A stretch of 64,000 nt of DNA from Caldilineales bacterium (GTDB lineage: Bacteria > Chloroflexota > Anaerolineae > J102): positions 1-64,000 of the forward strand of contig JAIBAP010000016.1 in NCBI GenBank assembly GCA_019695115.1, given 5' to 3'. Below the pieces are notes generated by a model. The model was not told where the DNA came from and made no database searches. It saw only the letters and a program-made list of their open reading frames with translations. Below, in pieces: positions 12,805-31,506 of this stretch (position 1 is the first letter of the stretch; each line of letters starts with the position of its first letter). Position numbers and translations under genes: made by a program.

Positions 12805-12896
12805 TGACAAGAAACCCAAAAGGTCTCCAAGACCGTTAGGGTTTTGATAGTGACAAGAAACCCTAAAGGTCTCCAAGACCTTTAGGGTTTTGATAG
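12805..12896. repeat. Two tandem 46-bp palindromic repeats
   Basis: Units at 12805-12850 and 12851-12896 contain the palindrome CCTAAAGGTCTCCAAGACC..TTAGGG, with nearly perfect arms (CCTAAAGGTCT / AGACCTTTAGG) around a CCA loop; the first copy has two point changes that weaken the stem. The second unit encodes the last residues of the URO-D protein ending at 12863. The element lies in the spacer between rhaA and that gene. Confidence 0.9.
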
Positions 12897-13987
12897 TGGC
12901 CGTGCTGTTTGACGGCGGCGATGAAGGCTTCGACATTGTCCATCGAGACGTCGGATTGGATGATGTGGGCCGGCGAGCACATATAGCCCCCGCTCGCGCC
13001 CAGGACCCGGATTTTCTCGGCCACATCGGCGGCGATTTCTTCCGGCGTACCATTGGGCAGGAGGTGTTGCTGGTCGATGGCGCCCCAAAAGGCCATGCGG
13101 TCGCCGAATTTGGTCTTGAGTTCGAGCGGGTCGTGGCCGGGGACGTTGGGTTGGACGGGGTTGAAGACCTGCATGCCGATGTCGGCCAGGTCGCCGAGGA
13201 TGGGGGCGACGGCGCCATCGGTATGGTAGGCGATGATCACGTTCGCGTCCAGCGCCCGGATTTCCTGCCACATCTCGGCGTAGCGGGGTTTGAAGACGTT
13301 GCGCCACATGCCGGGCGAGATCAGCATGGCGTTCTGGCCCCCGAAGTCGTCGCCGAACCAGAGCGCATCGACGCCGAGGCCGACCAGTTGTTTGGCAATG
13401 CCAGTGTTGAAGGCCTTGACCTCGTCGATGAGGGCGAAGCAGTAGTCTTCGCCCATGGCCAGGTCGATCATGAATTTCTCCAGCCCGACATGGAGCCAGG
13501 ACATCTCGAACATCCCGACTTCGACATCGCCGATGATGAAGTACTCGCCCTTGTATTGCTCGATCTGGCGTTTGGCGTCGTCGAAGCGGCCTTCGGCGTA
13601 GGGGTCGGGGTAGCCGTGCGCCAGCACATCCTGCACGGTGGCGGCGTGTTTGAGGGGCGGGTCGACGACCTCCATATACAGCGGCCCCTGGCGCATCTTC
13701 ATGCCATATTCGTTGACGATCAGCCCCTCGGCCGTGACCGGGTGGCTGTACCCGGCTGGCAGGCTGCCCCCCACCACCACGCAATCGCTGCCCATGGCCG
13801 TGCGCAGTTCGTTGGCCGAGATGCGGTAGGTGACGTCTTCGTAGTAGGAGGTGGTGAAGTGGGCGGGAAGGCCGTATTTCTGGCTGAAGGCGTTGGTCAG
13901 CGAGCGGCAGAGGTCGAATTGGACGGGCACGCGGTCGGGGACGCCGCTGCGCCGCAGCGCCCTATCGACGCGTTGACGGGAATTCAT
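12863..13987 (-). CDS. URO-D superfamily protein, paralogue 1
   Basis: A 374-residue TIM-barrel protein of the uroporphyrinogen decarboxylase superfamily (COG0407 type). It begins [22 protein letters not shown], and has [18 protein letters not shown] followed by VFNPVQPN and a [19 protein letters not shown] segment. The arginine-rich RQAGRY substrate motif of true HemE is absent, and the HxCG zinc motif of corrinoid methyltransferases is HTDG instead, so neither activity can be assumed. The ATG at 13987 follows AAAAAGGAGCAAAACC. The C-terminus ([11 protein letters not shown]) is encoded by the 46-bp repeat. It lies directly upstream of rhaA in the same direction. Confidence 0.88.
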
Positions 13988-14040
13988 GGTTTTGCTCCTT
14001 TTTGATCCGCGAAGGACGCGAATGGACGCGAAGAAGGATA

Positions 14041-14330
14041 AGTTTTGAACACAAAGGCACGAAGGGCACAAAGGTAATACGAAGAGGGGGTAGTTTTGAA
14101 CACAAAGGCACGAAGTTCACAAAGGTAACACGAAGAGGGATAAGTTTTGAACACAAAGACACGAGGGGCACAAAGGTAATACGAAGAGGGATAAGTTTTG
14201 AACACAAAGACACGAGGGGCACAAAGGTAATACGAAGAGGGGGTAGTTTTGAACACAAAGGCACGAAGTTCACAAAGGTAACACGAAGAAGGATAAGTTT
14301 TGAACACAAAGGCACGAAGGTAACACGAAG
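14041..14330. repeat. Six tandem 51-bp repeats (CACAAAGGCACGAAG family)
   Basis: Units start at 14041, 14092, 14143, 14194, 14245 and 14296. Each carries AGTTTTGAACACAAAGGCACGAAG-like sequence followed by CACAAAGGTAATACGAAGA, with alternating sub-variants (GGGCACAAAGGTAAT versus TTCACAAAGGTAAC). Related text recurs at about 21165-21270 and 62030-62070. The array fills most of the 429-base gap between a URO-D gene and rhaM; nothing else is seen there. Not CRISPR, because there are no unique spacers. Confidence 0.92.
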
Positions 14331-14416
14331 ATTGTTATTAAAAGCAAGACCTTTGTGTCTCCTTCATGTTCTTTGTGTTTTTGTGTTTGAGTTGTCCTTC
14401 TAAGCGTTTTTTGTTG

Positions 14417-14740
14417 CTAATCCAGGTGAAACACTTCCTTCAACTCGATCATGCTTTCATCGGCATGGGCGCCGCCAAGACCCTCGAAATAGGGGGCCAT
14501 GAAGTCCTGCCAGCGCTGGTTGATCTCCTCCTGCGACATGCCTTCGAGTGCGTTCTGGAAGCTGAAGGGCGTCTCGAAGTAGCCGAAGAGCAGGCCGTCG
14601 TCGCGCATGAAGAGCGAGTAGTTGTGCCAGCCGGTGCGGGTGAGGGCATCCAGCATCTCCGGCCAGACCGATTTGTGGTGTTCGATGTATTCGGGGATCT
14701 TGTCTTGTTTGACTTTGAGAAGGAAGGCGATGCGTTTCAT
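14417..14740 (-). CDS. rhaM: L-rhamnose mutarotase
   Basis: A 107-residue dimeric alpha+beta-barrel protein of the RhaM family (E. coli 104). Matching features are KRIAFLLKVKQDKIPEYIEHHKSVWPEMLDAL at the start, WHNYSLFMRDDGLLFGYFE in the middle, QRWQDFM and the terminal ELKEVFHLD. It interconverts alpha and beta anomers of L-rhamnose so that the isomerase receives its preferred form. Its place between two URO-D genes and near rhaA ties the URO-D set to rhamnose use. Confidence 0.93.
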   Translation of the reverse strand: MKRIAFLLKVKQDKIPEYIEHHKSVWPEMLDALTRTGWHNYSLFMRDDGLLFGYFETPFSFQNALEGMSQEEINQRWQDFMAPYFEGLGGAHADESMIELKEVFHLD

Positions 14741-14758
14741 GGGTGACTCCTACGAGGT

Positions 14759-14921
14759 TGTGGACGCGGATAGGGAAACGCGGAAGGGTGTTGGGTGTTG
14801 GTTTCGAAATTCGCAATCCGAAATTCGCAATTGCTTTGTGGAAGCGGATAGGGAAACGCGGAGGGAGGCTGGGTGTTGGTTTCGCAATCCGCAATTGTCG
14901 ATTCGCAATCCGCACTGCTGT
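14759..14921. repeat. Two imperfect tandem repeats of about 80 bp
   Basis: Two copies of a unit with GCGGATAGGGAAACGCGGA, GGGTGTTGGTTTCG and AATTCGCAATCCG-type segments occupy the whole spacer between rhaM and the second URO-D gene. Copies differ in length and at several positions. No promoter signal stands out in it. Confidence 0.8.
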
Positions 14922-16256
14922 TCAGTCGCCGCGGATGAGGGCTTGCAGAGGCTTGGGCCAGTAGTTGCTGGCGCTGAGCCGGGCGGCCAATTCGTCGCGG
15001 TCTTCAGGCCCGGCCTGGATGGGGTAGACGCCGAATTCGTAGGCGGCGTCGCAGGCAGCCAGGATGTTGTCGGCGGGGACATCGCCCAGCATGTTGTGGA
15101 TCGAGGCGAAGACATAGCCGCCGCCGGGGGCCAGTATCTTGAGCCGACGCCGCACATCCTCCCGCACTTGTTCGGGCGAGCCAAACGGCAGGACGCTGTG
15201 GGTATCCACACCGCCGCCCCAAAAGGTGATGTTCTGGCCGAAACGGCGTTTGAGTTCGGCGGCGTCCATGTTGGCGGCGTCGGTCTGCACCGGGTTGAGG
15301 CAATCTACCCCGGCATCGATCAATTCCGGGATCAGATCGATGATGGCGCCGTCGGTGTGATAGAAGACGGCCGCCGGGCTGTGGTCGTGGATGGCCTGGA
15401 AGATGGCTTTGTGGCCGGGCAGGATGAACTCGCGATAGATGCTCAGCTTCATCATCGGCCCGCGCTGGTGGCCGATGTCGTCGGCGCACATGAAGACATC
15501 GATGTACTCGCCCACCGCTTCCAGATAGCGGGCGATGCCCGTGACCATCTCCTGGCGCAGCCGGTCGAAGAAGTGGTGCGCCAGCCGGGGCCGCCTGAGC
15601 ATGTGCATGTAGATCGTGTCCCAGCCGACGATGCCCTGGGCGTGTTCGAGAAAGGTGGCGAAATAATCGGCGACGATGGCCTTGTCGGTCGTCTGGCGAA
15701 GGCGTTGGGCGAACTCGCGTCCCCAGACCAGTTCCTCATCCGAGACGCGGATGCGGCCCAGGAAGTTGCCGTCGTAGGTGTCGAACCAGTGGTCGATCTC
15801 GGCTTCGGTGGTGGCCTGGCGCAGGGGGTGGTAGCGCAGCGAGAAGGCGTGCGTGCCCTCGCCGGGCGCTTCGGCCAGAACGACGCCGTGCTCCCGCCAT
15901 TCCCAATCGCCAATCGAGTTGCGCGTCGGGTTGAAATCGACCGGCGCCAGGTACTCGGCGCCATCTACATAGGTCCAGGGCTTGAACTCAGCGTTGGGGA
16001 TGCCCAACGACATGCGATAGCGCGGCAGGGTGACGGTGTCGACGTGCAGCCGGTCGGCGATGGCGGCTTCGATCTCGGGCGCTTGAATCCAGGTGTGGAA
16101 AAGGCGCGCCCGGCTATCGGTGATCCCCAGCCGTCGCCTTAGATTGCCGTAGGCTTTGAGGCTGATATTGGTGACGCCGGTGCCGCCGACATCGATGGGC
16201 ACGCGGTCGGGTTCTTGATGGCGGATGGCGGCCAGGACGCGTTCGCGGGAGTTCAT
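14922..16256 (-). CDS. URO-D superfamily protein, paralogue 2
   Basis: A 444-residue URO-D-fold protein starting MNSRERVLAAIRHQEPDRVPIDVGGTG. The signature block reads VFYHTDGAIIDLIPELIDAGVDCLNPVQ, then FWGGGVDTHSVLPFGSPEQV and APGGGYVFASIHNM. The shared HTDG...NPVQ pattern and MNS(R/K)(Q/E)R start link it to the paralogues at 12863, 17523 and 19843. Longer than paralogues 1 and 3. The family fold binds tetrapyrroles or methyl-carrier cofactors; function here is unknown. The start codon is the first ATG after a minisatellite region. Confidence 0.88.
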   Translation of the reverse strand: MNSRERVLAAIRHQEPDRVPIDVGGTGVTNISLKAYGNLRRRLGITDSRARLFHTWIQAPEIEAAIADRLHVDTVTLPRYRMSLGIPNAEFKPWTYVDGAEYLAPVDFNPTRNSIGDWEWREHGVVLAEAPGEGTHAFSLRYHPLRQATTEAEIDHWFDTYDGNFLGRIRVSDEELVWGREFAQRLRQTTDKAIVADYFATFLEHAQGIVGWDTIYMHMLRRPRLAHHFFDRLRQEMVTGIARYLEAVGEYIDVFMCADDIGHQRGPMMKLSIYREFILPGHKAIFQAIHDHSPAAVFYHTDGAIIDLIPELIDAGVDCLNPVQTDAANMDAAELKRRFGQNITFWGGGVDTHSVLPFGSPEQVREDVRRRLKILAPGGGYVFASIHNMLGDVPADNILAACDAAYEFGVYPIQAGPEDRDELAARLSASNYWPKPLQALIRGD

Positions 16257-16258
16257 GT

Positions 16259-16500
16259 GTGGAGATTGGTTATTGGAGATTGGAGATTGGTTATTGGAGA
16301 TTGGTTATTGGAGCTTGCGAAGCGAGCACCGGGTTTCTGCATGTCTACTTGTCTACTTGTTTCCTTGTCTACTTGTTTCCAGGTCTACTTGTCTACTTGT
16401 CTACTTGTTTCCTTGTTTCCTTGTCTACTTGTTTCCTTGTCTACTTGTTTCCTTGTTTCCTTGTCTACTTGTTTCCTTGTTTCCTTGTCTACTTGTCTAC
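16259..16500. repeat. Two minisatellites: GGAGATTGGTTATTGG and CTACTTGTTTCCTTGT
   Basis: From 16259 to about 16316 short units of GGAGATT and GGTTATT alternate; from about 16340 to 16500 units of TGTCTACT and TGTTTCCT alternate irregularly. The second tract touches the 3' end of the MBL-fold gene. Both are low-complexity tracts seen repeatedly between genes of this window (GGAGATTGG type also at about 17460, 35310, 39965, 41400 and 52515). Confidence 0.9.
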
Positions 16501-17369
16501 TCGAACTCCCAGACCTGCCCTCGCGCGGCTATGCGCACGAGAGCGGCCAGGTGGGGCCAGGCGGCGTCGAGGCGGGCTTTGAGATCGGCGTCGGTCAGCA
16601 TGCCCCAGGGATCTTCCAGGCCGCTGTAGTGGACGAGCCAGGCGCCGTACTGCTGTTGGTCGGGCGCGTAAACCAGCTCGAGGCCATGCAAGAAGCCGGA
16701 ACTGACGAGTTCTTCGAGGCCGGCGTGCGTCGTCCATTCCTTCAGCGCGCACCAGGTGGTGGCATCGACCAGAGTCAGGGAGGGGCGACGGAGGGCGGTG
16801 AGGTCGGAGGGCGGGGTGGTGATGTCCCAGGCGATGAGCAGGCGATGGCCGGGCGGAAAATCGAAGACAAGGAAGACGGCGCCCTCGAAATGATCGGTGG
16901 GGACGGGTGTGATGCGAAAGGGGCTATGGACGTGCGGCAGGCCGGGAATCAGGGGATGAAAGGCGAGGGTGTCGCCACCGTGGAAGCCGTACCAGTGCGT
17001 GCGTTCCAGGTGGCGGTAGGTCGGTTCGGTGCAGAAGACAGGGAGTGGTGGGCGTTTCGAGTGCAAATCACCGCGACGTGTGCAGTAGATCTCTGAAAGC
17101 ACCATCAGCTCGGCGTGGTGGTCGATGTGGCCGTGGGTGATAAAGACGGCCAGCGGCTGGTCCCAGAACTCGTCCGGGCAGAAGTCGGCGATGGCTTCCA
17201 GTGTCCCCAATCCGCAGTCGATAAGGATGTTCTGGACGCCGCCATCGTCTGTCCGCTGGCTGAGCAGCCCACAGACATGGCCGCCCTTTTGCACGCCAAT
17301 ACAACGGCGCTCGGTCCAATAGGCGTAGTCCCGGTTGAGTTGGCGGTAGGTGAAAGTGGCAGGGGGCAA
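16497..17369 (-). CDS. Metallo-beta-lactamase-fold hydrolase
   Basis: A 290-residue MBL-fold protein. The metal motif is THGHIDHHAE (HxHxDH), preceded by ILIDCGLGTLEAI, with later ligands likely in TDHFEGAVF and IAWDITTP. The arrangement resembles PhnP/RNase Z-like phosphodiesterases and hydrolases that take an early MDYAYWTERR-like lead. The best start is a TTG at 17369, and that codon lies at the edge of the GGCAGGTGGCA minisatellite; a repeat may have replaced the original ATG. It sits between two URO-D genes on the same strand, so it may hydrolyse a phosphorylated or esterified intermediate of that pathway (inference). Confidence 0.8.
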   Translation of the reverse strand: MPPATFTYRQLNRDYAYWTERRCIGVQKGGHVCGLLSQRTDDGGVQNILIDCGLGTLEAIADFCPDEFWDQPLAVFITHGHIDHHAELMVLSEIYCTRRGDLHSKRPPLPVFCTEPTYRHLERTHWYGFHGGDTLAFHPLIPGLPHVHSPFRITPVPTDHFEGAVFLVFDFPPGHRLLIAWDITTPPSDLTALRRPSLTLVDATTWCALKEWTTHAGLEELVSSGFLHGLELVYAPDQQQYGAWLVHYSGLEDPWGMLTDADLKARLDAAWPHLAALVRIAARGQVWEFE

Positions 17370-17520
17370 GTGGCAGGTGGCAGGTGGCAGGTGGCAGGTG
17401 GCAGGTGGCAGGTGGCAGGTGGCAGTGGTAGGTGGTGGAGGATAGCGGTTATTGATTATTTGGTTATTGGTTGATTCCCGTCAATAACCAATAACCAATC
17501 TCCAATCTCCAATCTCCAAC
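17361..17520. repeat. GGCAGGT minisatellite followed by inverted ATTGGTTATTGG tract
   Basis: About eight units of GGCAGGT (17367-17425), then GGTTATTGATTATTTGGTTATTGG and, after a short centre, the complementary CAATAACCAATAACCAATCTCC up to 17518. The two halves can pair as a long imperfect hairpin between the URO-D gene ending at 17523 and the MBL gene. Confidence 0.85.
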
Positions 17521-17522
17521 AA

Positions 17523-18506
<984 letters not shown>

Positions 18507-18517
18507 GGGGGGAGTGA

Positions 18518-18775
18518 GGGGTGATGAGTGAGGCGTGAGGCGTGAAACGTGAGGCGTGAGACGTGAGGCGTGAGACGTGAGGCGTGAGACGTGAGGCGTG
18601 AGACGTGAGGCGTGAAAAGTGAGGCGTGAGACGTGAGGCGTGAGACGTGAGACGTGAGGCGTGAGACGTGAGGCGTGAGACGTGAGGCGTGAGGCGTGAA
18701 GCGTGAGGCGTGAAGACGAGCGATCCGACGGAACACGGAATACGGAATACGGAACACGGAACACGCAGCACGGAC
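18518..18775. repeat. GTGAGACGTGAGGC minisatellite plus ACGGAATACGG tract
   Basis: About 200 bases of GTGAGGCGTGAGAC-type units (7-bp half-units GTGAGRC) are followed by about 50 bases of ACGGAATACGGAACACGG units. Similar text recurs at about 39535-39600. It separates the DUF4037 gene from the third URO-D gene. Confidence 0.9.
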
Positions 18776-18781
18776 CCCGTT

Positions 18782-19831
18782 TCACGAGGGGGTGAGGTTG
18801 AGGAGGCTATCCCAAGTTGCCAGGTCGAGCGAGGCGACGTAGTTGCTATGAAAAGCTTCGAGGTAGACCTGATCCCAAACTGGCACGATGTTGCGCAGGT
18901 CGGCGGGCAGGCCGTGGAGGATTTCGGCGTAGGCGTGTTCGAGCAGGCGGTAGCCCGAGCTGGGGTGGTCGCTGAACTGGGGGTGGGGCCGGATGATGCC
19001 GTCGTCGACCAGGGTTTGGTCAACGACGTCGGCCATCTGGTTCAGGAGTTCGAGTTTGCGCGCCCAGGGGGTGGCCAGGCTGACGGCTTCGTTGATGATC
19101 GGCGTCAGGGGATAGGCCAGGCGCGGGAGTTTGGCGAAGAAGGCCATCGTCCACTTGTCATAAGGACAATACTGTTTGTCGAGGAGGAAGGCCAGTTGTG
19201 TGCCCAGGCGCAAGGCGCGGGCAAAGGTGATGTTGGCGTACCATTCGTTGTAGCGCAGGATGGCGCGCTTGAGGGCATAGCTGCCCATGCCAGAGAAGTA
19301 GCGACACCAGTGGGCGATGCGGCGCAGGCGGACGGGTTCGGGGTAGTAGGCTAGAAACGCCTGGCGGATGGCGGTGAACTGGCCGGTGTCGTCCATCCAG
19401 ATTTCGCCGTTGATGATGTGCATGATGTCGTCTTCGGGCACGCTCAACCATTCGGCATAGGTCTCGGGCACTTTGGTCAGGCCGATGGTGCGGCGCAAAT
19501 AGCCCTCCATGCTGGCCAGCGATAGCCCCTTGCCGCCTGACAGCCCCTCGCGCAGGTTGTGGCCCCGGAATGTCGTCGGCATCTCCCGCTCGACCACGCT
19601 CAGGATTTCGGCGCTGCGCTGTTGGAACAGGTCTTCGGGCATAAGGGCGTTGATGCGGATGCCCCAATGATGGTCGGCGGAGTATTCATCGTCCAGCCGT
19701 AGCACTTCCGAGCCGTAGCCGAAGACGCCGAAGGTCGTGCGCCGCGTCTCTTCGGGGAAGTGACGCTCCAGGATCGGTTCCAGGACCTCGAAGAAGAACT
19801 GGCGGCTGATGTCGATGATGGATTCGCGCAT
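18782..19831 (-). CDS. DUF4037 (nucleotidyltransferase-fold) protein
   Basis: A 349-residue protein with the DUF4037 layout: an N-terminal nucleotidyltransferase-like region FGVFGYGSEVLRLDDEYSADHHWGIRINAL, with a GxGS element followed by DDE and DHHWG acidic residues, then a helical domain (RRIAHWCRYFSGMGSYALKRAILRYNEW; CPYDKWTMAFFAKLPRL). The chemistry of this family is not established; aminoglycoside-nucleotidyltransferase-like activity is suggested by the fold. The ATG at 19831 is 11 bases downstream of the URO-D stop at 19843, so the two are one operon. Its role beside sugar genes is unknown. Confidence 0.85.
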   Translation of the reverse strand: MRESIIDISRQFFFEVLEPILERHFPEETRRTTFGVFGYGSEVLRLDDEYSADHHWGIRINALMPEDLFQQRSAEILSVVEREMPTTFRGHNLREGLSGGKGLSLASMEGYLRRTIGLTKVPETYAEWLSVPEDDIMHIINGEIWMDDTGQFTAIRQAFLAYYPEPVRLRRIAHWCRYFSGMGSYALKRAILRYNEWYANITFARALRLGTQLAFLLDKQYCPYDKWTMAFFAKLPRLAYPLTPIINEAVSLATPWARKLELLNQMADVVDQTLVDDGIIRPHPQFSDHPSSGYRLLEHAYAEILHGLPADLRNIVPVWDQVYLEAFHSNYVASLDLATWDSLLNLTPS

Positions 19832-19842
19832 GGGTGGGTCTC

Positions 19843-21129
19843 CTACCTGTCTCCCGCCGTCTCGATAATCTCGTTCAGCCGGTGGCGATAGTATTTGAAC
19901 TGTTCCCAGCTGACGCCGGGGGAGATGCAATGGTCGCCGGTGGGGACATAGCCGCCGTGTTCGAGCAGGGCGGCGACGGGGGTCAGGAATTCCTCGATCC
20001 GGGCCGGGCCGAGGGCCATGTCGTACTTCGGCACCCCGCCCATCATCTGGAAGCGGGGGTATTGCTGGCGCAGCTTGACCACATCCATGCCAGCACTCGT
20101 TTCCATGGGGTACATGCCAGTCACACCGGCCTCCAGGAACTGCGGGATCAGTTTCTCGATATTGCCGTCGGTGTCGACGAGGATGATGTCGACGCCCTTG
20201 CCGGCCAGGAAATCGGTGATGCGGCGATAGCAGGGGGCCATGAACTCGGCAAAATGGGCGGGCGAGACCATGGTGCCCATCGTGGACGACATGTCCTCCC
20301 AGATGTGGCAGCAGTCGATCTCGACCTCGGCCAGGATTTCCTCCCAAACGGCAATCCAGAGGGTGGTCAGGTGGCGCAGGATGTCGTGAACCAGGTCGGG
20401 TTCGTCGTAGTAGAGGTAGAAGACGTTTTGGTAGCCGATGAGGTGGACGAGCGTGCCGAAGAAGCCGCAGGGATAGCCGCCCACTGCCAGGGGATAATCG
20501 CGATCTCGATACTCTTGCACCCACCAGCCCCAGTTGGCGGGGAAGCGGGAGCGGATGTCATCCAGCCGCAGCCGCTCTTCTTTGATTTGCAGCCAGGTGG
20601 CCCAATCTTTGATCGGCCACTCGCGGGCGGTGGGGATCACGGCCTCGTCCTTCTGGAACTGGCGTTTGACGCCGTCGATATCGACATAGGTGACGAAGCG
20701 GTCATCTTCGGCCAGCACCTTTGGCTCGAAATAGGGGTGGAAGAGCTGCTCGACCGGCGCCATGGCCGTGCTTCTGTCGAAGCCGAAGTAGTCCATCACA
20801 TCCAGGGCCAGCGGGAAGCCCTGGCTGGGCCAATACAACGCCCCACCCCAGATGGCGATGCCATTCGGGAGTTCGATGTCCTGCTCGCGCTCGTCATAGA
20901 ATTTCTCCAGATAGGTGCGCTGCTGGCGCCAGGCGTGCGTCCAGGCGGTGGTGTAGAGCGAGGCGCCGATGGTGGTGAGGCGGGTGGGGAGGTTCGTCCC
21001 GTACTTTTTCGGCAGTCCTTCCTGATACCATTGTTTGATGTTCTCGCCCCAGAAGCCGAACTCCCATTTGAGGGTGCGGACGCCGGGGCTGAAGTGCATG
21101 ACTTCGAGAAAGCGTTGGCGTGAATTCAT
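19843..21129 (-). CDS. URO-D superfamily protein, paralogue 4
   Basis: A 428-residue, more divergent member: start MNSRQRFLEVMHFSPGVRTLKWEFGFWGE, core IILVDTDGNIEKLIPQFLEAGVTGMYPMETSAGMD (VDTDG replacing HTDG, YPMET replacing NPVQ) and a closing HGGYVPTGDHCISPGVSW. The histidine shared by paralogues 1-3 is an aspartate here, so it may differ in metal or substrate. It is the promoter-proximal gene of the pair with DUF4037. Downstream of the SGNH/VanZ pair, separated by 122 bases holding CACAAAGGCACGAAG-type repeat fragments. Confidence 0.85.
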   Translation of the reverse strand: MNSRQRFLEVMHFSPGVRTLKWEFGFWGENIKQWYQEGLPKKYGTNLPTRLTTIGASLYTTAWTHAWRQQRTYLEKFYDEREQDIELPNGIAIWGGALYWPSQGFPLALDVMDYFGFDRSTAMAPVEQLFHPYFEPKVLAEDDRFVTYVDIDGVKRQFQKDEAVIPTAREWPIKDWATWLQIKEERLRLDDIRSRFPANWGWWVQEYRDRDYPLAVGGYPCGFFGTLVHLIGYQNVFYLYYDEPDLVHDILRHLTTLWIAVWEEILAEVEIDCCHIWEDMSSTMGTMVSPAHFAEFMAPCYRRITDFLAGKGVDIILVDTDGNIEKLIPQFLEAGVTGMYPMETSAGMDVVKLRQQYPRFQMMGGVPKYDMALGPARIEEFLTPVAALLEHGGYVPTGDHCISPGVSWEQFKYYRHRLNEIIETAGDR

Positions 21130-21251: not shown

Positions 21252-21659
21252 TCACTTCGTGCCTTCGTGTTTGCTGCCTTTTTCGATCGAGCCGATGAGC
21301 AGGCTGGCGCCAAGGATGCCCACGTAGCTGAAGCTCAGGTCGAGGAGCGAGAGGGTGCGGGTGCGGAAGAATGCCTGGCTGAGTTCCTCGATCGTGACCA
21401 GCAGCAGGGCCAGGAGGCTGCCCAGAAGGATTTTCCTGCCGGCCATACTAACGCGACGAGTCGAGAGGGCCAGGTTGAGCGCCAGGGCCAGCACGCCCAT
21501 GAGCACGAAGTGGCCGGCTTTGTCGCCGTGTGGGAAGGCATAAAGCCGGTGGATGACCGCCGGCATCGTCCCGGTGTCGGCTGAAAAGATGATAAAGCCG
21601 ACGAAGGCGAGGAAGGCGAGGGCGATCAGCGCGGCCAGAAGACGGTAGGGGCGGCTCAT
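21252..21659 (-). CDS. VanZ-like membrane protein
   Basis: A 135-residue protein with four hydrophobic segments and the VanZ-like pattern: GDKAGHFVLMGVLALALNL, then TIEELSQAFFRTRTLSLLDLSFSYVG. VanZ-like proteins are small integral membrane proteins of unclear function (teicoplanin tolerance in the founder). The start overlaps the SGNH-hydrolase stop (ATGA). The last ten residues (EKGSKHEGTK) are encoded by a CACAAAGGCACGAAG-type repeat, so the C-terminus is repeat-derived. Confidence 0.82.
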   Translation of the reverse strand: MSRPYRLLAALIALAFLAFVGFIIFSADTGTMPAVIHRLYAFPHGDKAGHFVLMGVLALALNLALSTRRVSMAGRKILLGSLLALLLVTIEELSQAFFRTRTLSLLDLSFSYVGILGASLLIGSIEKGSKHEGTK

Positions 21660-22516
21660 AGCCGATTGTCGAGCACGCGCAACACTCGCCGGGCCATCAG
21701 TTTGTGGCCGCTGGGACCGGGGTGCAGGCCGTCGGGCAGGTAGTGGGCAGGGTCAGGTGAGGAGCCGAAGAGAGAGAAGAGATCGACGAAAGTCAAGCCG
21801 TGCTGCGCTGCCAATTCGCCTACCGCATCGGCGCACGCCTTCAGGTTGCGGTTGTCCCAGGTCATGCGCATGGGAACGAAATCGGGATAGGTGTTGACGA
21901 TGGATTCGACCACAGGGGTGGGGCTGAGGAGGATGATCCGGGCCGGCGTGAAACGCTGGAAGGCAGCAACGATGGCGGCCAGGTTGGCCCGGTATTCGTC
22001 CAACGAGACCAGCGTCCGGGCCAGGGGATCGCCGAACTGCTTACAATCATTGACGCCGAACTTGATCAAGACCCAATCGGGCTGATGGGCCAAGAACTGG
22101 GTGTGAGTCGTTTCCAGGCCGTGGGTCGAAGTGTAGCCGGATTGAGCCAGGTTGAGGAAGCGGAGTTGATCGAGAGGGCGGCGTAGTTCGAGCATGGCTG
22201 CTAATAGTCGGGCATAGCCCCAACGATAGGTGGTGATCGAGTCGCCAATCGCCATCACCAGCCCGCCTGCGGGCAGGGGCAAGCGGTCGATGGCAAAGGC
22301 ATCATCGGGCGAGGAGAGCATCTCGAAGGCAGTGAGCCGCACTCGCCGCTCCACCGCCGCGGTGTAGCGGCGGATCGGCTCCGGCGTCGTAGCGAACATG
22401 CTGGCGGCGGCGTCATCCGGCACGGCCAGCCCCAGAGCCGCCGGAACCATGTGCAGGTTGAAATCGACCAGAAAGGCCGTTTCGGGCGGCAGGTGCATTT
22501 CGGGCGTTTCGATCAT
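21656..22516 (-). CDS. SGNH/GDSL-family hydrolase
   Basis: A 286-residue protein. Block I is VMAIGDSITTYRWG (nucleophile serine), block III is IKFGVNDCKQFGDP (oxyanion-hole Asn) and block V is YLPDGLHPGPSGHKLM (Asp/His), the full SGNH set. Such enzymes deacylate or demodify carbohydrates and lipids. No signal peptide is visible, so a cytoplasmic sugar esterase is likely; the 80-residue N-terminal region before block I is of unknown role. It lies 11 bases after the ABC permease stop, so it belongs to that transporter operon. Confidence 0.88.
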   Translation of the reverse strand: MIETPEMHLPPETAFLVDFNLHMVPAALGLAVPDDAAASMFATTPEPIRRYTAAVERRVRLTAFEMLSSPDDAFAIDRLPLPAGGLVMAIGDSITTYRWGYARLLAAMLELRRPLDQLRFLNLAQSGYTSTHGLETTHTQFLAHQPDWVLIKFGVNDCKQFGDPLARTLVSLDEYRANLAAIVAAFQRFTPARIILLSPTPVVESIVNTYPDFVPMRMTWDNRNLKACADAVGELAAQHGLTFVDLFSLFGSSPDPAHYLPDGLHPGPSGHKLMARRVLRVLDNRL

Positions 22517-22527
22517 GTCTCTCCTCC

Positions 22528-23514
22528 TTATCCCGTTCGGCGTAAGCGTAGTTGGTCCAGCCCCACCGCCAGAAGCAGCACCAGACCCTGGGCGATCTGC
22601 TGGTAGTAGGCCGAAACGCTAAGCAGTACCATGCCGTTGTTCAGGGTGCCAAGAATCAGGATACCGATCAGCGTTCCCAAGATGGTGCCTTTGCCCCCGG
22701 CCAGGCTGGTTCCGCCCAGGATGACGGCGGCGATCACACTGAGTTCGAGTCCCGACGCGGCCTGTGGTGCGCCCGCCCCCAACATCGAGGTGAGGATAAC
22801 GCCGGCCACACCTGCGCTCAAGCCAGAGAGCACAAAGGCGATGAACTGAAAGTTCTTCACCTTCAACCCGGCCAGGTGGCTGGCGGCGGCATTGCCGCCG
22901 ACCATGTACATCGCCCGTCCATACTGAGTGAAGCGCATGATGATGTAGGTGGCGAGGATGACGAGGGTGAAGATCAGCACCGGGATGGGGATGCCGGACA
23001 GGAAGCTGCGACCGATGTTGCCAAAGGCCGGGTCCAGTACGGGTTCGGTCAGGCCGCCGGAGAAGACGAAAGCCAGCCCGCGCACGATCGAGAACATGCC
23101 CAAAGTGGTGATCAGGGCGTTGATGCCCACGCGGGTGACGATCAAGCCGTTGGCGATGCCCACGATCAGGGCCGCCAGCAAGCCCGCCGCGGCGCCGCCC
23201 CAAACCCCCAGTGTATTCTGGGAGTGGGAAATGATCACCCCCACCAACGCCACTGTCGATCCCACCGACAAATCGAGGCCGCCACCCACCATCAGCATGG
23301 TCGTCACCATGGCGATGATGCCCATGACAGAGCTGGCCAGCAGCAGGTTGAGGAAATTGCGCTTACTAAGAAAGACATCGGAAAGAAAATACATCACCAA
23401 GACGATGATCAGATACATGGCCAGCAGCCCCACACCCTCGCGCAAGGCCGACGACCTGAGACGCGATGCCCATCCGCCTTGTTGCTGCCCACTCGTCGCT
23501 TCGGTCGTAGTCAT
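22528..23514 (-). CDS. Sugar ABC transporter permease (RbsC-like)
   Basis: A 328-residue multi-pass permease of the ribose/xylose/galactose class. Typical segments: GGGLDLSVGSTVALVGVI (substrate-path signature), IGIANGLIVTRVGINALITTLGMFSIVRGLAFVFSGG, YGRAMYMVGGNAAASHLAGLKV (cytoplasmic coupling loop) and VILGGTSLAGGKGTILGTLIGILILG. It overlaps the ATPase stop by 4 bases. Together with the ATPase at 23511, permease at 25051 and binding protein at 26151 it makes a complete importer with two different permeases. Confidence 0.93.
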   Translation of the reverse strand: MTTTEATSGQQQGGWASRLRSSALREGVGLLAMYLIIVLVMYFLSDVFLSKRNFLNLLLASSVMGIIAMVTTMLMVGGGLDLSVGSTVALVGVIISHSQNTLGVWGGAAAGLLAALIVGIANGLIVTRVGINALITTLGMFSIVRGLAFVFSGGLTEPVLDPAFGNIGRSFLSGIPIPVLIFTLVILATYIIMRFTQYGRAMYMVGGNAAASHLAGLKVKNFQFIAFVLSGLSAGVAGVILTSMLGAGAPQAASGLELSVIAAVILGGTSLAGGKGTILGTLIGILILGTLNNGMVLLSVSAYYQQIAQGLVLLLAVGLDQLRLRRTG

Positions 23515-25037
23515 TCTTCACCTCCGGCGGCGGCGTGCAACAAGCGGGCCTGTGTGGCGTCGGCGGCGCTGAACTCACCCGTGATCCGGCCTTTGTACAT
23601 GGTCAGAATGCGATGGCTCACCGAAAGCACCTCTTGCATATCCGAGGAAACCATGAGGATGGCCAGACCTTGTTGCGCCAGTGCTTCGAGTTGGTTGTAG
23701 ATGTCGGCGCGGGCGCCCACATCCACCCCCCAGGTTGGCTCGTTCATGATCAGAACCTTGACATCGGCTTCCAGCCAACGCCCCAGCACCACCTTTTGCT
23801 GATTGCCGCCGCTCATGTAACGGGTTTCGGTCTCCATGCCGCCAGCGACGCGCACGCCCAAATCGTCGATCCAGCGTTGCGCCCGTTTTTTCTCGCTCTT
23901 GGACTGGAAGAAGCCGAATCGAGAGATCGCTGGCCAATTGGAGAGGGTGAGATTTTCACGCACGCTGCGGCCCAACACCAGCCCCTGCACCTTGCGGTCG
24001 ATGGGCACCAAACCGATGCCAACCTGTCGGGCGTCGCTGGGCGAGGTGATGGTGACACTCTTGCCGCCGACCCTGATCTCGCCGCGGTCCGCGCGCTCGG
24101 CCCCGAACAAGGTCCGGGTGAGGTTCGAGTGCCCGGCCCCCAACAGCCCAAAGATGCCGACGATCTCGCCAGTGCGCAAGTCCAGGTCGATATCCTCGAA
24201 AGCGCCGGCGCGACTGAGTCCCCTTACCTCCAGCACGGCCTGGTCATCTCGTGCTCCAGCCTCGACGCCCCCCTGTCTGTCTTCTACTTCGTGCCCGACC
24301 ATCATCCGTACCAGGTCGCGCTTGCTCACATCCGCCACCCGGCAGGTATCCACCTTATGCCCGTCGCGCAGCACTGTCACCCGCTGGGCGATCTGGAAAA
24401 TCTCGTCAAGGCGGTGCGAGATATAGACGATGCCCACGCCTTGCTTGCGCAGCGATTCGACCATCTGGAACAACAAATCGACTTCGCGCGGGGTGAGGGC
24501 GGCAGTGGGTTCGTCCATGACGATGATGCGGGCCTTGCCCGACACCGCTTTGACGATCTCCACGATCTCGCGTTCGACCACAGAAAGGTCGCCCATGCGC
24601 GCCTTGGGGTCGATTTTGACATCGAGCACCCCCAGGTGCTCCTCGGCCTGGCGGTAGGCTTGCGGCCAGTCGATGACATAGCGGCTCAATCCCTTTCCCC
24701 GCCGCGGGAGATTCCCCAGGAGAAGGTTCTCCGTCACCGAAAGCTCGTGACAGTGGTGCAGCTCCTGATAGATCATGCGGATGCCCAGGTTGGCGGCCTG
24801 GCGAGGGCTATCCACTTCGACCGGCCGGCCATCGATGAAGATGGCGCCGCTGTCCTTCTGATAATCCCCGTTCAAGATTTTGATCAAAGTCGACTTCCCG
24901 GCCCCGTTTTCGCCAATCAACGCCATCACCTCGGCTGGGAACAGGTCGATGGAGACATCGTCCAGGACTTTGAGGCCAAAGAAGCTCTTGGAGATGGCGT
25001 GCATCTCCAGAATGGGGGGGACAGTGCTTGCAGTCAT
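23511..25037 (-). CDS. Sugar ABC transporter ATP-binding protein (RbsA-like, two ABC domains)
   Basis: A 508-residue double ATPase. Domain 1: Walker [13 protein letters not shown], signature region MGDLSVVEREIVEIVKAV, Walker B IIVMDEPTAAL. Domain 2 has a degenerate Walker A (GLLGAGHSNLTR) and a good signature [15 protein letters not shown], while Walker B reads VLIMNEPTWGVDVG, with Asn in place of the usual Asp and Trp in place of Arg. A degenerate second site is normal for this family. It powers uptake through the permeases encoded on both sides (22528 and 25051). Confidence 0.94.
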   Translation of the reverse strand: MTASTVPPILEMHAISKSFFGLKVLDDVSIDLFPAEVMALIGENGAGKSTLIKILNGDYQKDSGAIFIDGRPVEVDSPRQAANLGIRMIYQELHHCHELSVTENLLLGNLPRRGKGLSRYVIDWPQAYRQAEEHLGVLDVKIDPKARMGDLSVVEREIVEIVKAVSGKARIIVMDEPTAALTPREVDLLFQMVESLRKQGVGIVYISHRLDEIFQIAQRVTVLRDGHKVDTCRVADVSKRDLVRMMVGHEVEDRQGGVEAGARDDQAVLEVRGLSRAGAFEDIDLDLRTGEIVGIFGLLGAGHSNLTRTLFGAERADRGEIRVGGKSVTITSPSDARQVGIGLVPIDRKVQGLVLGRSVRENLTLSNWPAISRFGFFQSKSEKKRAQRWIDDLGVRVAGGMETETRYMSGGNQQKVVLGRWLEADVKVLIMNEPTWGVDVGARADIYNQLEALAQQGLAILMVSSDMQEVLSVSHRILTMYKGRITGEFSAADATQARLLHAAAGGEE

Positions 25038-25050
25038 TGCCGGCGGCCTC

Positions 25051-26052
25051 CTAGCGCGCCCTGTCTGCCGCCAGTCGCGTGCGCAGTACGTCGAAGCCCA
25101 CGGCCAGGATGAGCACGGCGCCGCGGGCCACCTGCTGCCAGTAGGACGAGAGATCGACCAGAATCAGCCCGTTGTCAAGTGTGCGTAAGATCAGCACCCC
25201 GATCAGCGTTCCGGTCAGCGCGCCCTTTCCTCCTGTCAGGCTGGTGCCGCCCAATACCACCGCCGCAATGACGGTGAACTCCAGGCCGGTGGCCAATTGG
25301 GGCGTGCCTGCGGCCAACTGCGATGACTGCACCAGCCCACCCACCGCCGCCAGCAATCCGCCGAAAGCGAAAACGATCAACAGGTATTTGTTGGCGGGAA
25401 TGCCGGCCAGCCGACTGGCGGCGGGGTTGCCGCCGATAGCATAGAGGTCGCGGCCAAAGGGGGTGTATCTCAGCACGAGATAGAAGATGACATAAAGCAG
25501 AATCATCAAGATGAAAGGCACCGGGACGCGGGCGATTTCGCCTCGACCCAGCCAGAGAAAGCGAGGATCGGTGAGCTGATTCATCTGGGCATTGGTGAGC
25601 ACGAAGGCCAGCCCGCGCACAATCGAAAAAGTCGCCAGCGTGGTGATCAAGGCGTTGATGCGTAAACGTGTAACCAGCAGGCCATTGACAAGTCCAACTA
25701 GGGCGCCGCTCAGCAATCCTACTGTTGCGGCTATCCCGATAGGTAGCCCGGCTTTCTCCCACAACAGCCCCGTCACCACCCCCGAAAGCGCCGCCACCGA
25801 CCCCACCGAAAGATCCACCCCCCCGGCAATGAGCACCAGTGTTTCGCCGATGGCGACAATGCCAACGATGGGCATGGTGCGGGCGATGTTGACGAAGTTT
25901 TCGACAGTCAGGAAGTAAGGTGAGAGGATGCTGAAGACAACGCACATGGCGATGAACACGATCAGCAAGCTCAGGCTGGTGGTCAGGCGGAAGCCTCTGG
26001 CCTGGATGCGAGCGGCCAGGGTGGGACGAGCGGGGGGCGAGGTGGTGCTCAT
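25051..26052 (-). CDS. Sugar ABC transporter permease (RbsC-like), second subunit
   Basis: A 333-residue permease similar in layout to the one at 22528: AGGVDLSVGSVAALSGVV, LVNGLLVTRLRINALITTLATFSIVRGLAFVLTNA, FGRDLYAIGGNPAASRLAGI and VLGGTSLTGGKGALTGTLIGVLIL. The ATG at 26052 is preferred; an upstream in-frame codon at 26112 would add a proline-rich, non-membrane leader. Two distinct permeases suggest a heterodimeric channel. Confidence 0.92.
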   Translation of the reverse strand: MSTTSPPARPTLAARIQARGFRLTTSLSLLIVFIAMCVVFSILSPYFLTVENFVNIARTMPIVGIVAIGETLVLIAGGVDLSVGSVAALSGVVTGLLWEKAGLPIGIAATVGLLSGALVGLVNGLLVTRLRINALITTLATFSIVRGLAFVLTNAQMNQLTDPRFLWLGRGEIARVPVPFILMILLYVIFYLVLRYTPFGRDLYAIGGNPAASRLAGIPANKYLLIVFAFGGLLAAVGGLVQSSQLAAGTPQLATGLEFTVIAAVVLGGTSLTGGKGALTGTLIGVLILRTLDNGLILVDLSSYWQQVARGAVLILAVGFDVLRTRLAADRAR

Positions 26053-26150
26053 TAGCTCGGATTTCTGACAAAGAGGATGGGGTGGATGTGGACTGGGGGC
26101 ATCCGCATCCACCCTCTGATCGAGTCAACCGGCTGCCAGGCCTGTCATTC

Positions 26151-27269
26151 TTACTTGCAACTGGCGTGTTCGGGGTAATACTGGCAGAGATTGTCTTTGG
26201 TGATGAAGACGTGGTCGACGTAGATAGCCGGCGGCAAGGGTTTGCAGTTGAGCAGGTCGAGGATGGCCGGGATCAGGTAAGAGCCGTATTTCTCCGGGAA
26301 ATAGGCAGTCGATCCGAGATGGCGGCTGCCCTCTTTGACCATTTCATCCTGGCCGGAAGGATCGGCGCCCTGCGCCACCACCACGATGTCTTCCTTGCGT
26401 CCGGCGGCTTCGAAGGCGGCGATGGTGCCCAGGGCCGTGCCTTCGTTGATGTTGATGCCGACGACGTGACGGGCGTCGGGGATCTTGGGCAGGGTGTCGC
26501 TGACCACCTTGAAGGCCTCATCCTGGGTGTTCTTGCTGTCCAGGTGGAAGATCATATCATCGGCCGGTTTGGTCTTGACGTTGTTCAGGAGGCCTTCCAA
26601 CTGCCCTTGTAGACGAGCCGCCGGGATGGGGCCCGATTGCGGTAGTTCCAGGGCGACAACGGCATCCAGCTTGCCATCCCAGTTTTCGTTCACCCATTTG
26701 GCCGCGGCCTCACCGGCCATGTAGCCGGCCCGATAATTGTCGGCTCCGAAGAAGGTGGCGCCCGGCATGGGGATGTCGATAGCGATAACCGGGATGTTCT
26801 CGCGGCGGAACTTGTCCATGATCACGTTGCCGAACTTCTCATCGGTCTGAAACTCGATCACGCCATTGACCCCTTGTAGGATGAAATTGTCGGCGTTGGC
26901 CAGCGCCGTGGCGCCATCGAGCTTGTTGTCGGCGATGACCAGATCGACCCCCGCCTTGGCGGCTTCATCCTTGATGCCCTGTTCCACCAGTTGGGTGAAG
27001 ACGATATCTTCGGTCAGGTTGGCAAAACCGATCTTGTATTTGTCCTTCGTTGTTGCACATTCCTGCGCCACTGGCGTGGCCTGCACTTGCACCTCGACCG
27101 TCTCTTTGACGACCACAGTTTGCTGCACCGGCACCTCCACCGTTTCCTTGACGACCACCGTTTCCTTGACAATCTGGGGTGTGGCCGGGGCGGCGCAGGC
27201 GGCGAGAGCCAGGAGCAGGACGGCGACGCCCAACAGAATGGCTAGTTTCATCGTTCGCGTGAGCTTCAT
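26151..27269 (-). CDS. Sugar ABC transporter substrate-binding lipoprotein
   Basis: A 372-residue binding protein. Signal peptide with lipobox LALAAC, then a tether made of VVKETVEVPVQQTVVVKETV-like repeats, then a type I periplasmic-binding fold (Peripla_BP_4) from about residue 78: YKIGFANLTEDIVF, VIADNKLDG, IPVIAIDIPMPGATFFGADNYRAG, GININEGTALG, VAQGADPSG, GSTAYFPEKYG. The ligand is not identifiable, but the DUF-like sensor half of the divergent regulator at 27518 is clearly homologous to it. RBS AAGAGGAG precedes the ATG. First gene of the minus-strand transporter operon. Confidence 0.93.
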   Translation of the reverse strand: MKLTRTMKLAILLGVAVLLLALAACAAPATPQIVKETVVVKETVEVPVQQTVVVKETVEVQVQATPVAQECATTKDKYKIGFANLTEDIVFTQLVEQGIKDEAAKAGVDLVIADNKLDGATALANADNFILQGVNGVIEFQTDEKFGNVIMDKFRRENIPVIAIDIPMPGATFFGADNYRAGYMAGEAAAKWVNENWDGKLDAVVALELPQSGPIPAARLQGQLEGLLNNVKTKPADDMIFHLDSKNTQDEAFKVVSDTLPKIPDARHVVGININEGTALGTIAAFEAAGRKEDIVVVAQGADPSGQDEMVKEGSRHLGSTAYFPEKYGSYLIPAILDLLNCKPLPPAIYVDHVFITKDNLCQYYPEHASCK

Positions 27270-27431: not shown

Positions 27432-27471
27432 TTGACGAAACTTGTCGAAGTTTGACGAACTTTGTTGAATA
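27432..27471. promoter_or_regulatory. Candidate operator: four 10-bp direct repeats
   Basis: Four consecutive 10-bp units start at 27432, 27442, 27452 and 27462, with consensus TTGwCGAAnT (units 1 and 3 TTGACGAA, unit 2 TTGTCGAA, unit 4 TTGTTGAA). The period equals one helical turn, as in known DeoR-family operators built from several short direct repeats. It lies in the divergent spacer between the transporter operon and the DeoR/binding-protein fusion and overlaps the candidate promoter of the latter. Confidence 0.6.
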
Positions 27472-27480
27472 TGGTAGCAT
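27452..27480 (+). promoter_or_regulatory. Candidate sigma-70-type promoter for the DeoR/binding-protein fusion
   Basis: TTGACG at 27452-27457 and TAGCAT at 27475-27480 are separated by 17 bases and lie 38 bases upstream of the ATG. The -35 box is the third operator unit, which would give direct autorepression. Confidence 0.5.
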
Positions 27481-27517
27481 GCACCACAGAGAATGTCAAA
27501 GATCGCAAGGAGCTGCG

Positions 27518-29209
27518 ATGATGAGCAACGGCATGACCACATTCGAGCGTCGCCAGCGGATCCTGAAACACTTGGAGGAGCAGCCGGTCGTCAAAGTAAC
27601 CGAGCTGGCGGTTGAACTCGATGTCTCGGAAGGTACGATACGCAACGACCTGGCGGCTTTGGAGTCCGAAAGCCGCTTGCTGCGTGTGCGCGGCGGCGCC
27701 GCCGCTATTCAGCAGGCGCCACCTGCCGGCGCGCGGGCCACAAGAAGCTCCGCCAATGTGGAAGCGAAACGCCGGATCGCCCGCTGGGCCGCCGATATGG
27801 TTGACGATGGCGACGCCATCTTCCTGGACGCAAGTTCGACTGTGCTACACATGGTCTCTTGCTTGCAGCGCCACCAGCGTTTGAGCATCGTCACCAATGG
27901 TCTGGAAACGGCCCGGCTGCTGGGGGAAACGACCCCGCATACTGTCATCCTGTTGGGCGGCGTGTTAGGGGCGAACGCCAACGCCGTCACCGGGTTGTTG
28001 GGGGCGCCGATGGTGGCGGGTCTGCACCTGCGCCGCGCCTTCATCTCGGGGGTGGGCCTGACTGTGGTGGAGGGTCTGACCGAGCGCGACCTGGAGGAAG
28101 CCCGGCTTAAGCAGGTGATCCTGGACAGAGGGTGCGAAGTCGTCGTCCTGGTCGATTCCACCAAACTCGGCAAGGTTGGTTTTGCCCCGTGTCTGCCGAT
28201 TACGCAGATCGCCCATCTGGTCACGGATAGTCGCGCTCCGACCGAGTTCATCCAGGAGTTGCGCCAGTCCGATGTGGCGGTGACGGTGTGCGGTGAGCGC
28301 ACGGTGACGACCTATCATCGCCAACAGCCGGTTTATCGCATCGGCTTTGCCAATCTGACCGAGACCGGCATCCCCTTTGCCATCGATGTGCGGCATGGGC
28401 TGGAAAGGGCCGCCGCCGAGCGGCAGGTGGGCCTGGTATTAGCGGACAACCGGCTGAGTGGCGAGCACGCCCTGAAAGTGGCTGACTATCTGATCGAGAA
28501 GGAAGTCGACCTGGTGATTGAATATCAGATCGATGCCGCCATGAACAGTTTGCTGATGGATAAGTTCAGCCGCGCCGGCGTTCCCGTCATTGCCGTGGAC
28601 ATTCCCCTGGTCGGGGCGACGTTTTTTGGCATCGATAACTATCGGGCCGGTCTCAGCGCCGGCACCGCGATGGGGAAGTGGGTGGCGGCGAACTGGGCGG
28701 CGGAACTGAGCCATGTGATCATACTGGAAGAGCCGCGCGCCGGCGATCTACCGGCCAGCCGCATCCACGGCCAGTTGGATGGTTTGCAGGAGGTGCTAGG
28801 GCCGATCCCGGAAGCGAAGTGGCTACGTGTGGATAGTGGCAATACAAGCGAGATCAGTGAGCGCGGTGTCTTGCAGGCGCTTCAAAATCTGATGGACGCA
28901 CACCATGTCGCCATTCTGTCGTTCAATGATGACGCCGCTTTGGGGGCGCTGCGGGCGGCGCAGAAATTGGGGCGGGAAGACACTGTGGCTATCGTCGGGC
29001 AGGGCGCCGATCGCTTGGTGCGACACGAAATCCGCCAGCGCAATTCCCCCGTCATCGGCTCGACCGCCTTCATGCCCGAAGCCTACGGCGAGAAGCTCAT
29101 CGACCTGGCTCTCGACATCCTCGAGGGCAAACCCGTACCCCCGGCTGTGTTCATGGAACCGGTTTTCATCGATGCCGCTAACATCGATGATTACTACGCC
29201 GATTCCTGA
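27518..29209 (+). CDS. DeoR-family regulator fused to a sugar-binding-protein domain
   Basis: A 563-residue, three-part cytoplasmic protein. Residues 1-65: DeoR helix-turn-helix (ERRQRILKHLEEQPVVKVTELAVELDVSEGTIRNDLAALE, then LLRVRGGA). Residues about 77-250: DeoRC sensor (FLDASSTVLHMV, TVILLGGVL, VVLVDSTKLGKVGF). Residues about 273-560: type I periplasmic-binding fold without a signal peptide, closely matching the adjacent transporter binding protein (YRIGFANLTE; LADNRLSG; PVIAVDIPLVGATFFG then DNYRAG; GSTAFMPEAYG). The first ATG of an ATGATG pair follows AAGGAG at 27507. DeoRC domains usually sense sugar phosphates; the extra domain would let the protein read the free sugar as well. It is divergent from the transporter it probably controls. 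Confidence 0.92.
   Translation: MMSNGMTTFERRQRILKHLEEQPVVKVTELAVELDVSEGTIRNDLAALESESRLLRVRGGAAAIQQAPPAGARATRSSANVEAKRRIARWAADMVDDGDAIFLDASSTVLHMVSCLQRHQRLSIVTNGLETARLLGETTPHTVILLGGVLGANANAVTGLLGAPMVAGLHLRRAFISGVGLTVVEGLTERDLEEARLKQVILDRGCEVVVLVDSTKLGKVGFAPCLPITQIAHLVTDSRAPTEFIQELRQSDVAVTVCGERTVTTYHRQQPVYRIGFANLTETGIPFAIDVRHGLERAAAERQVGLVLADNRLSGEHALKVADYLIEKEVDLVIEYQIDAAMNSLLMDKFSRAGVPVIAVDIPLVGATFFGIDNYRAGLSAGTAMGKWVAANWAAELSHVIILEEPRAGDLPASRIHGQLDGLQEVLGPIPEAKWLRVDSGNTSEISERGVLQALQNLMDAHHVAILSFNDDAALGALRAAQKLGREDTVAIVGQGADRLVRHEIRQRNSPVIGSTAFMPEAYGEKLIDLALDILEGKPVPPAVFMEPVFIDAANIDDYYADS

Positions 29210-29346: not shown

Positions 29347-31506
<2,160 letters not shown>

Follow-up and report, generated by a model that had tools for sequence, protein, structure and literature searches.

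The 563-residue protein encoded at one locus of the window, the whole 64,000-nucleotide stretch of DNA under analysis, was found to be a member of a real protein family, in which a DeoR-type helix-turn-helix (HTH_DeoR), a DeoRC sensor domain and a sugar-type periplasmic-binding (PBP) domain are joined in a single frame (Table 1). The protein is probably a cytoplasmic, autoregulated repressor that receives two sugar inputs and controls both itself and the neighbouring CUT2 transporter. Sugar repressors are usually thought to respond to a single signal, which is either the free sugar (LacI type) or its phosphorylated or isomerised product (DeoR type). With a conserved two-sensor family, a clear predicted operator and a transporter protein whose pocket is the same, signal integration by a single repressor becomes directly testable. 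Moreover, annotations such as "DeoR family" and "substrate-binding" in Chloroflexota could then be read correctly.

Table 1. Coordinates of the regulator, its predicted control region and the transporter genes in the window
Feature	Coordinates	Strand	Basis
Three-domain regulator, HTH_DeoR, DeoRC and periplasmic-binding domain, 563 aa	27518..29209	+	ORF, Pfam, homologues, AlphaFold2
HTH_DeoR DNA-binding domain, residues 11-66	27548..27715	+	Pfam PF08220, E 8e-13
DeoRC sensor domain, residues 80-238	27755..28231	+	Pfam PF00455, E 9e-42; structure match 7l6l; motif counts
Sugar-type PBP domain without signal peptide, residues 271-563	28328..29206	+	Pfam PF13407; structure matches; pocket residues
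Predicted ribosome-binding site of the regulator, AAGGAG	27507..27512	+	Sequence; 5 nt before ATG
Predicted operator, four direct repeats TTGNYGAA, exact 10-bp spacing	27432..27469	+	Relatives vs shuffles; genome scan
Predicted regulator sigma-70 promoter, TTGACG-17-TAGCAT; -35 box is the third repeat	27452..27480	+	Sequence; spacing common to L030, L031, L078
Predicted transporter-operon sigma-70 promoter, TTGACA-17-TACCAT; start region within the repeats	27471..27499	-	Sequence
Sugar-binding protein of the transporter, with a lipoprotein-type signal; related to the regulator's C-terminal domain as an ancient paralogue	26151..27269	-	Homology, trees
CUT2-type sugar ABC permease	25051..26112	-	ORF, homology cluster
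CUT2-type double ATPase	23511..25037	-	Best NCBIfam model AraG, under its cut-off
CUT2-type sugar ABC permease	22528..23514	-	Best NCBIfam model AraH, under its cut-off
SGNH/GDSL hydrolase, last conserved operon gene in the window's lineage	21656..22516	-	Pfam PF13472; same place in L030, L031, L078, L034
L-rhamnose-mutarotase-like (RhaM-like) protein, transporter strand; possible operon member, substrate clue	14417..14740	-	TIGR02625, E 3e-17, below equivalog cut-off

The domain composition of the protein was evaluated by profile and structure comparison. HTH_DeoR, DeoRC and Peripla_BP_4 were each called by Pfam above the gathering cut-off, and Peripla_BP_4 (PF13407) covered residues 282-538 with an E value of 6e-26. 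The presence of HTH_DeoR together with a DeoRC domain of RpiA-like fold places the protein in the DeoR family, and its length and extra sensor lie outside the approximately 240-280 residues, ending after DeoRC, that are usual and not strictly defining for that family. A LacI-type HTH had no Pfam match in the protein; the GntR HTH model gave an E value of 0.007, which was below the cut-off, and HTH_DeoR scored better. The best NCBIfam match was AgaR (E 2e-44, under its cut-off). The C-terminal part was identified by both Pfam and structure as a sugar-type PBP type I domain, as in ABC substrate-binding proteins. Neither a signal peptide nor a lipobox was found ahead of it, where HTH and DeoRC stand, and the domain therefore corresponds to the cytosolic periplasmic-binding-fold sensor of LacI/GalR regulators. 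The AlphaFold2 model, built with an alignment of 52 relatives, had a mean pLDDT of 91.1 and a pTM of 0.74. Residues 1-263, folded alone, matched E. coli DeoR (7l6l) over residues 78-257 (180 residues, Z 25.5, rmsd 1.7), and the matched portion of 7l6l was the C-terminal domain of that protein; the next matches were eIF2B subunits and ribose-5-phosphate isomerases. Residues 271-563 resembled L-arabinose- and ribose-binding proteins (4kzk, Z 30.6; 2fn8, Z 30.2). A PDB profile search with the full-length 52-member alignment returned no match at E 1e-20, and single-domain PDB searches gave matches. The sequence-only reading of this DNA had described the three-part layout, both sensor folds and the missing signal peptide, all of which agree with these results, and had known of no described family of this kind; no published description of the layout was found in a literature search.

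The family was then delimited by its relatives. Full-length homologues in one open frame without an internal stop were present in 13 of 100 related genomes, and a search of 298 genomes of the class found matches to the PBP half in 41, mostly in frames of at least 560 residues. A 400-genome sample of the phylum yielded three matches besides the window's own at E values below 1e-75. Scanning of 84,980 species with the alignment profile gave 80 loci, mostly of full layout and nearly all from Anaerolineae (Chloroflexota); the exceptions, by MAG label, were three Deinococcota MAGs and one Bacillota MAG, and the range outside Chloroflexota is that of this pattern-based scan alone. The genome-contig scan with the single 563-residue protein as the query found no match. 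Six-frame analysis recovered about 113 frames of the order HTH-DeoRC-PBP, of which about 80 (35-68% identity) remained after removal of near-duplicates. A total of 83 distinct PBP domains, a few of them from partial frames, entered the comparisons below. Some of the relatives are located on very long contigs (a single contig of 4.67 Mb; others of 1.3 and 2.7 Mb). A sequencing or assembly error joining two frames at this locus is ruled out by the roughly 80 full-length relatives without an internal stop, and the earlier account of one intact frame is correct.

The putative operator was evaluated against relatives and shuffled sequences. Period-10 repeats scoring at least 17 of 21 were found in the upstream regions of 36 of 83 relatives versus 1 of 415 shuffles, and the control periods of 9 and 11 gave 2/83 and 1/83, respectively. 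In the whole 6-Mb genome the site upstream of the regulator was the only strong one, with one other site carrying three mismatches, and the reversed control pattern had no match. Two promoter-like sites were found by the operator, compared with 0.3 expected. In 20 of 27 clear operators (shuffled mean 0.2), the distance from the operator start to the following TGTCAA box of the reverse promoter was 51-63 nt (71 nt in one), and these distances clustered at 51-52 and 59-63 nt. Hence, the conserved distance of the box and the overlap of a repeat with the -35 element tie the predicted operator to both promoters. A recognisable operator of the TTGNYGAA consensus was present in fewer than half of the relatives. 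Outside the fusion clade, none of 15 ordinary DeoR genes carried the motif (at most 15/21). L245, an ordinary DeoR protein nested in that clade, has it at 19/21. A direct-repeat operator with a period of 10-11 bp, as described for the DeoR-type RhaR (PMC3870299), is thus also predicted here.

In the proposed mechanism, the DeoR HTHs would occupy the four repeats and block both divergent promoters. The CUT2 transporter would deliver unphosphorylated sugar to the cytosol, so that the cytosolic PBP domain would have something to read, and the C-terminal domain may sense this free sugar through the pocket residues of the transporter binding protein. By analogy with the DeoR family and RhaR, DeoRC may read a ketose or its phosphate that arises later in the pathway, and the presence of a ligand at one or both sensors would release the repressor. 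The two-sensor layout suggests that the transporter genes are opened only after the cell has tested for both the imported sugar and its breakdown product. A more specific form of this mechanism is held tentatively, at somewhat below an even chance: the signals of imported free sugar (PBP) and isomerised or phosphorylated product (DeoRC) would be integrated such that only a sugar that can be both imported and metabolised opens the transporter promoter, and the HTH would have been exchanged on one sensor lineage (DeoR in Chloroflexota, IclR in Acidobacteriota).

The pocket of the fused PBP domain is formed by N279, F287, D361, R415, N470 and Q495. These positions comprise the alignment matches to the ribose contacts of RbsB and two more conserved pocket-side residues. 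All six letters were identical in 71 of 83 fused domains and 22 of 22 transporter domains, and D361 and R415 were invariant in 83/83 fused domains. Because the same six residues occur in both kinds of domain, the fused domain and the transporter binding protein probably bind the same class of sugar. Judged by gene context, the sugar of the window's regulator is most likely L-rhamnose or a similar deoxy- or pentose sugar. A sugar-type (CUT2) ATPase and permeases were found in 46 of 83 loci, RhaM-like proteins in 13, rhamnulokinase-like proteins in 10 (TIGR02627, E 2e-135, for the gene of L030) and AraA/FucI-like isomerases in 11; the RhaM-like and ATPase/permease matches were below the curated cut-offs. 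Rhizobium and Sinorhizobium plasmids also carry transporter operons in which a related binding protein occurs together with an isomerase of this kind, next to AraC-type regulators. Some members of the family stand beside corrinoid methyltransferases or peptide-type ABC genes and have no sugar kinase, which indicates that the sugar differs between members.

Further genes were observed around the locus. On the transporter strand, the region 12863-21129 (-) encodes three UroD/MtaA-like proteins (12863-14071, 14922-16256 and 19843-21129) and a beta-lactamase-fold protein (16497-17369, -) alongside the RhaM-like gene, and this region possibly represents a pathway for a methylated deoxysugar. The gene at 29347-31506 (-) encodes a transporter binding protein of 719 aa in which two PBP domains, nearly identical to each other, follow in tandem. 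Its 300-nt copies are 90% identical at a spacing of 999 nt and hence are not a simple assembly repeat; another double binding protein is encoded at L044:3070-5154.

The case for DeoRC as a working sensor is weaker, and it fails in some clades. The hallmark residues D104, S106, T108, T126, G147, G148, G180, K198, D213 and K216 are retained in the window's protein, and the full motif of this protein and of 42 of 79 fusions is the commonest pattern of ordinary DeoR proteins. This retention opposes the explanation that sensing was handed over, with the PBP domain as the sole working sensor and DeoRC now a structural and oligomerisation part. That explanation is rather unlikely for the family, and it draws on two groups of relatives. 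The clade of L091, L094, L095, L097 and L099-L102 has lost D104, T108, D213 and K216 and has kept the PBP pocket, exactly so in 7 of 8 members; hence, two-input sensing cannot hold for every member. The DeoRC GG motif has also been lost in the subgroup L041-L045 and L093, which precedes corrinoid methyltransferase and UroD-like genes and perhaps regulates the use of methylated sugars or other methyl donors.

The opposite arrangement is an ordinary DeoR switch, with DeoRC as the sole sensor of the inducer and a passive or stabilising PBP domain. It is improbable, as invariant sugar contacts such as D361 and R415 are not what one expects of a passive domain. It accords with the plain DeoR proteins L253, L257 and L259, which have no PBP domain and occur in similar rha-like operons of other Chloroflexota, and with the operator that L245 kept after losing its PBP domain. 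Coupling to the transporter itself would mean that the repressor is titrated by docking of its PBP domain on the cytoplasmic side of the transporter. This is very improbable, since binding proteins dock at the outer face and most relatives adjoin a different transporter or none of the partner's family. The idea would fit the common subfamily of the fused domain and the transporter's binding protein and the conserved pairing of fused domains with partner proteins, whose histories are shared at 21 loci (Mantel r 0.55, p 1e-4). The repressor with two sugar inputs is the reading preferred here.

Tree and distance analyses were carried out for both halves of the protein. The neighbouring transporter binding protein and residues 273-562 of the regulator share 44% identity in an alignment of 291 residues (E 1e-78); the long shared blocks pointed out in the sequence-only reading are genuine. 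That the sensor half was duplicated recently from this adjacent gene in the window's lineage is refuted, despite the adjacency and this identity, by the AU test, in which a clade of the window's fused domain and the neighbouring transporter domain was rejected (p 4e-8), by the identities of the fused domain (69% to fused domains of other genera, 44-45% to the neighbour) and by the single clade of all transporter proteins in the PBP-half trees, with the fused copies outside (support 99.5 in the cleaner set). A tree that groups the four fused domains of the window's lineage with its four transporter domains was likewise rejected (p 2e-5). On average, fused domains were as distant from their own partners as from those of other genomes (0.576 for both). 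An outgroup of Sinorhizobium and Rhizobium phaseoli transporter proteins, whose branch is long, rooted the PBP tree on the transporter side, which favours a transporter-type protein as the ultimate source of the fused domain. Thus, of the earlier proposal that the sensor half had been copied from its own transporter, the recent form of the copying is discarded; descent from a transporter-type binding protein through one ancient event is compatible with the rooted tree.

In the HTH-DeoRC tree, the 79 fusions grouped as a single clade (support 93), apart from 20 ordinary DeoR proteins and six proteins of another layout. This indicates that the fusion behind this clade is old. When 15 closer ordinary DeoR proteins were added, only L245 nested within the fusion clade, and it is read as having lost its PBP half. 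The PBP tree had no single clade of all fusions and needed several changes; L109 grouped with Rhizobium transporter proteins, and the L091 clade grouped with IclR fusions. Exchange of PBP halves is therefore possible. The best reading is that the halves were joined long ago in Anaerolineae and then inherited with the transporter in many lineages. In the Deinococcota MAGs L133, L138 and L162, the regulator and the partner transporter gene occur together and co-cluster in both trees, which suggests that the pair moved between phyla if the MAG labels hold.

Other arrangements of these domains were also observed. A second, separate merger with the order HTH_DeoR-PBP-DeoRC (approximately 570-600 aa) was found in 14 of 249 genomes of the class, for example in the window's own genome, on contigs C31 and C18, at L047:9295-11010 (-) and L046:8126-9940 (+). 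In these proteins, Pfam covered only positions 49-250 of the 258 positions of the PBP profile, and hhalign aligned template positions 40-274 with E 5e-27 and positions 3-39 with E 0.006 at low probability. The missing N-terminal part seems to lie between PBP and DeoRC, as would follow from a circular permutation. In Acidobacteriota, the same PBP subfamily is joined to an IclR-type HTH in proteins of 366-447 aa (L184, L188, L189, L190 and L191); PF09339 was matched in L188 (E 3e-11) and L184 (E 2e-10), and the remaining three were assigned by N-terminal similarity. At least two kinds of DNA-binding protein have thus acquired a transporter-type binding protein. Free-standing PBPs of the fused-domain subfamily, 296-301 aa long (L104:3711-4601, L105:1257-2147, L186:5974-6879 and L187:5995-6885), branch among the fused domains and are presumably cytosolic because they have no signal peptide. 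In a single case, the 638-aa open frame at L103:515-2431, an ABC permease is joined to a PBP domain of the subfamily.

Among known systems, the nearest tested DeoR protein is RhaR of Chloroflexus aurantiacus, likewise a DeoR-type repressor in Chloroflexota, which serves a rhamnose operon with an ABC transporter (PMC3870299). RhaR is released by L-rhamnulose, the unphosphorylated ketose, and not by L-rhamnose, and it binds a tandem of four TCGAAA sites with 10-11 bp spacing; this consensus is close to the TTGNYGAA of the window's operator, which also has four tandem sites (PMC3870299). In contrast to the 563-residue protein, no periplasmic-binding domain is mentioned for RhaR, which was compared by its description only (PMC3870299). 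E. coli DeoR, AgaR, GlpR and SrlR share HTH_DeoR and DeoRC with the protein but have approximately 250 residues and one sensor. The CUT2 binding proteins RbsB and AraF share the fold and pocket positions of residues 271-563, whereas they are exported, free-standing and dock on a permease. LacI/GalR proteins are cytosolic regulators with a periplasmic-binding-fold sugar sensor, as in the present protein; they differ in having a LacI-type HTH, palindromic operators and no DeoRC. AraR of Bacillus subtilis also combines a winged HTH with a periplasmic-type sugar sensor in the cytosol, but its HTH is of the GntR type, its sugar domain is of the LacI/GalR type, and it has one sensor and no DeoRC (PMC4218819). 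Among regulators with a PBP-type sensor, AraR and the LacI proteins thus come closest, each with one sensor only.
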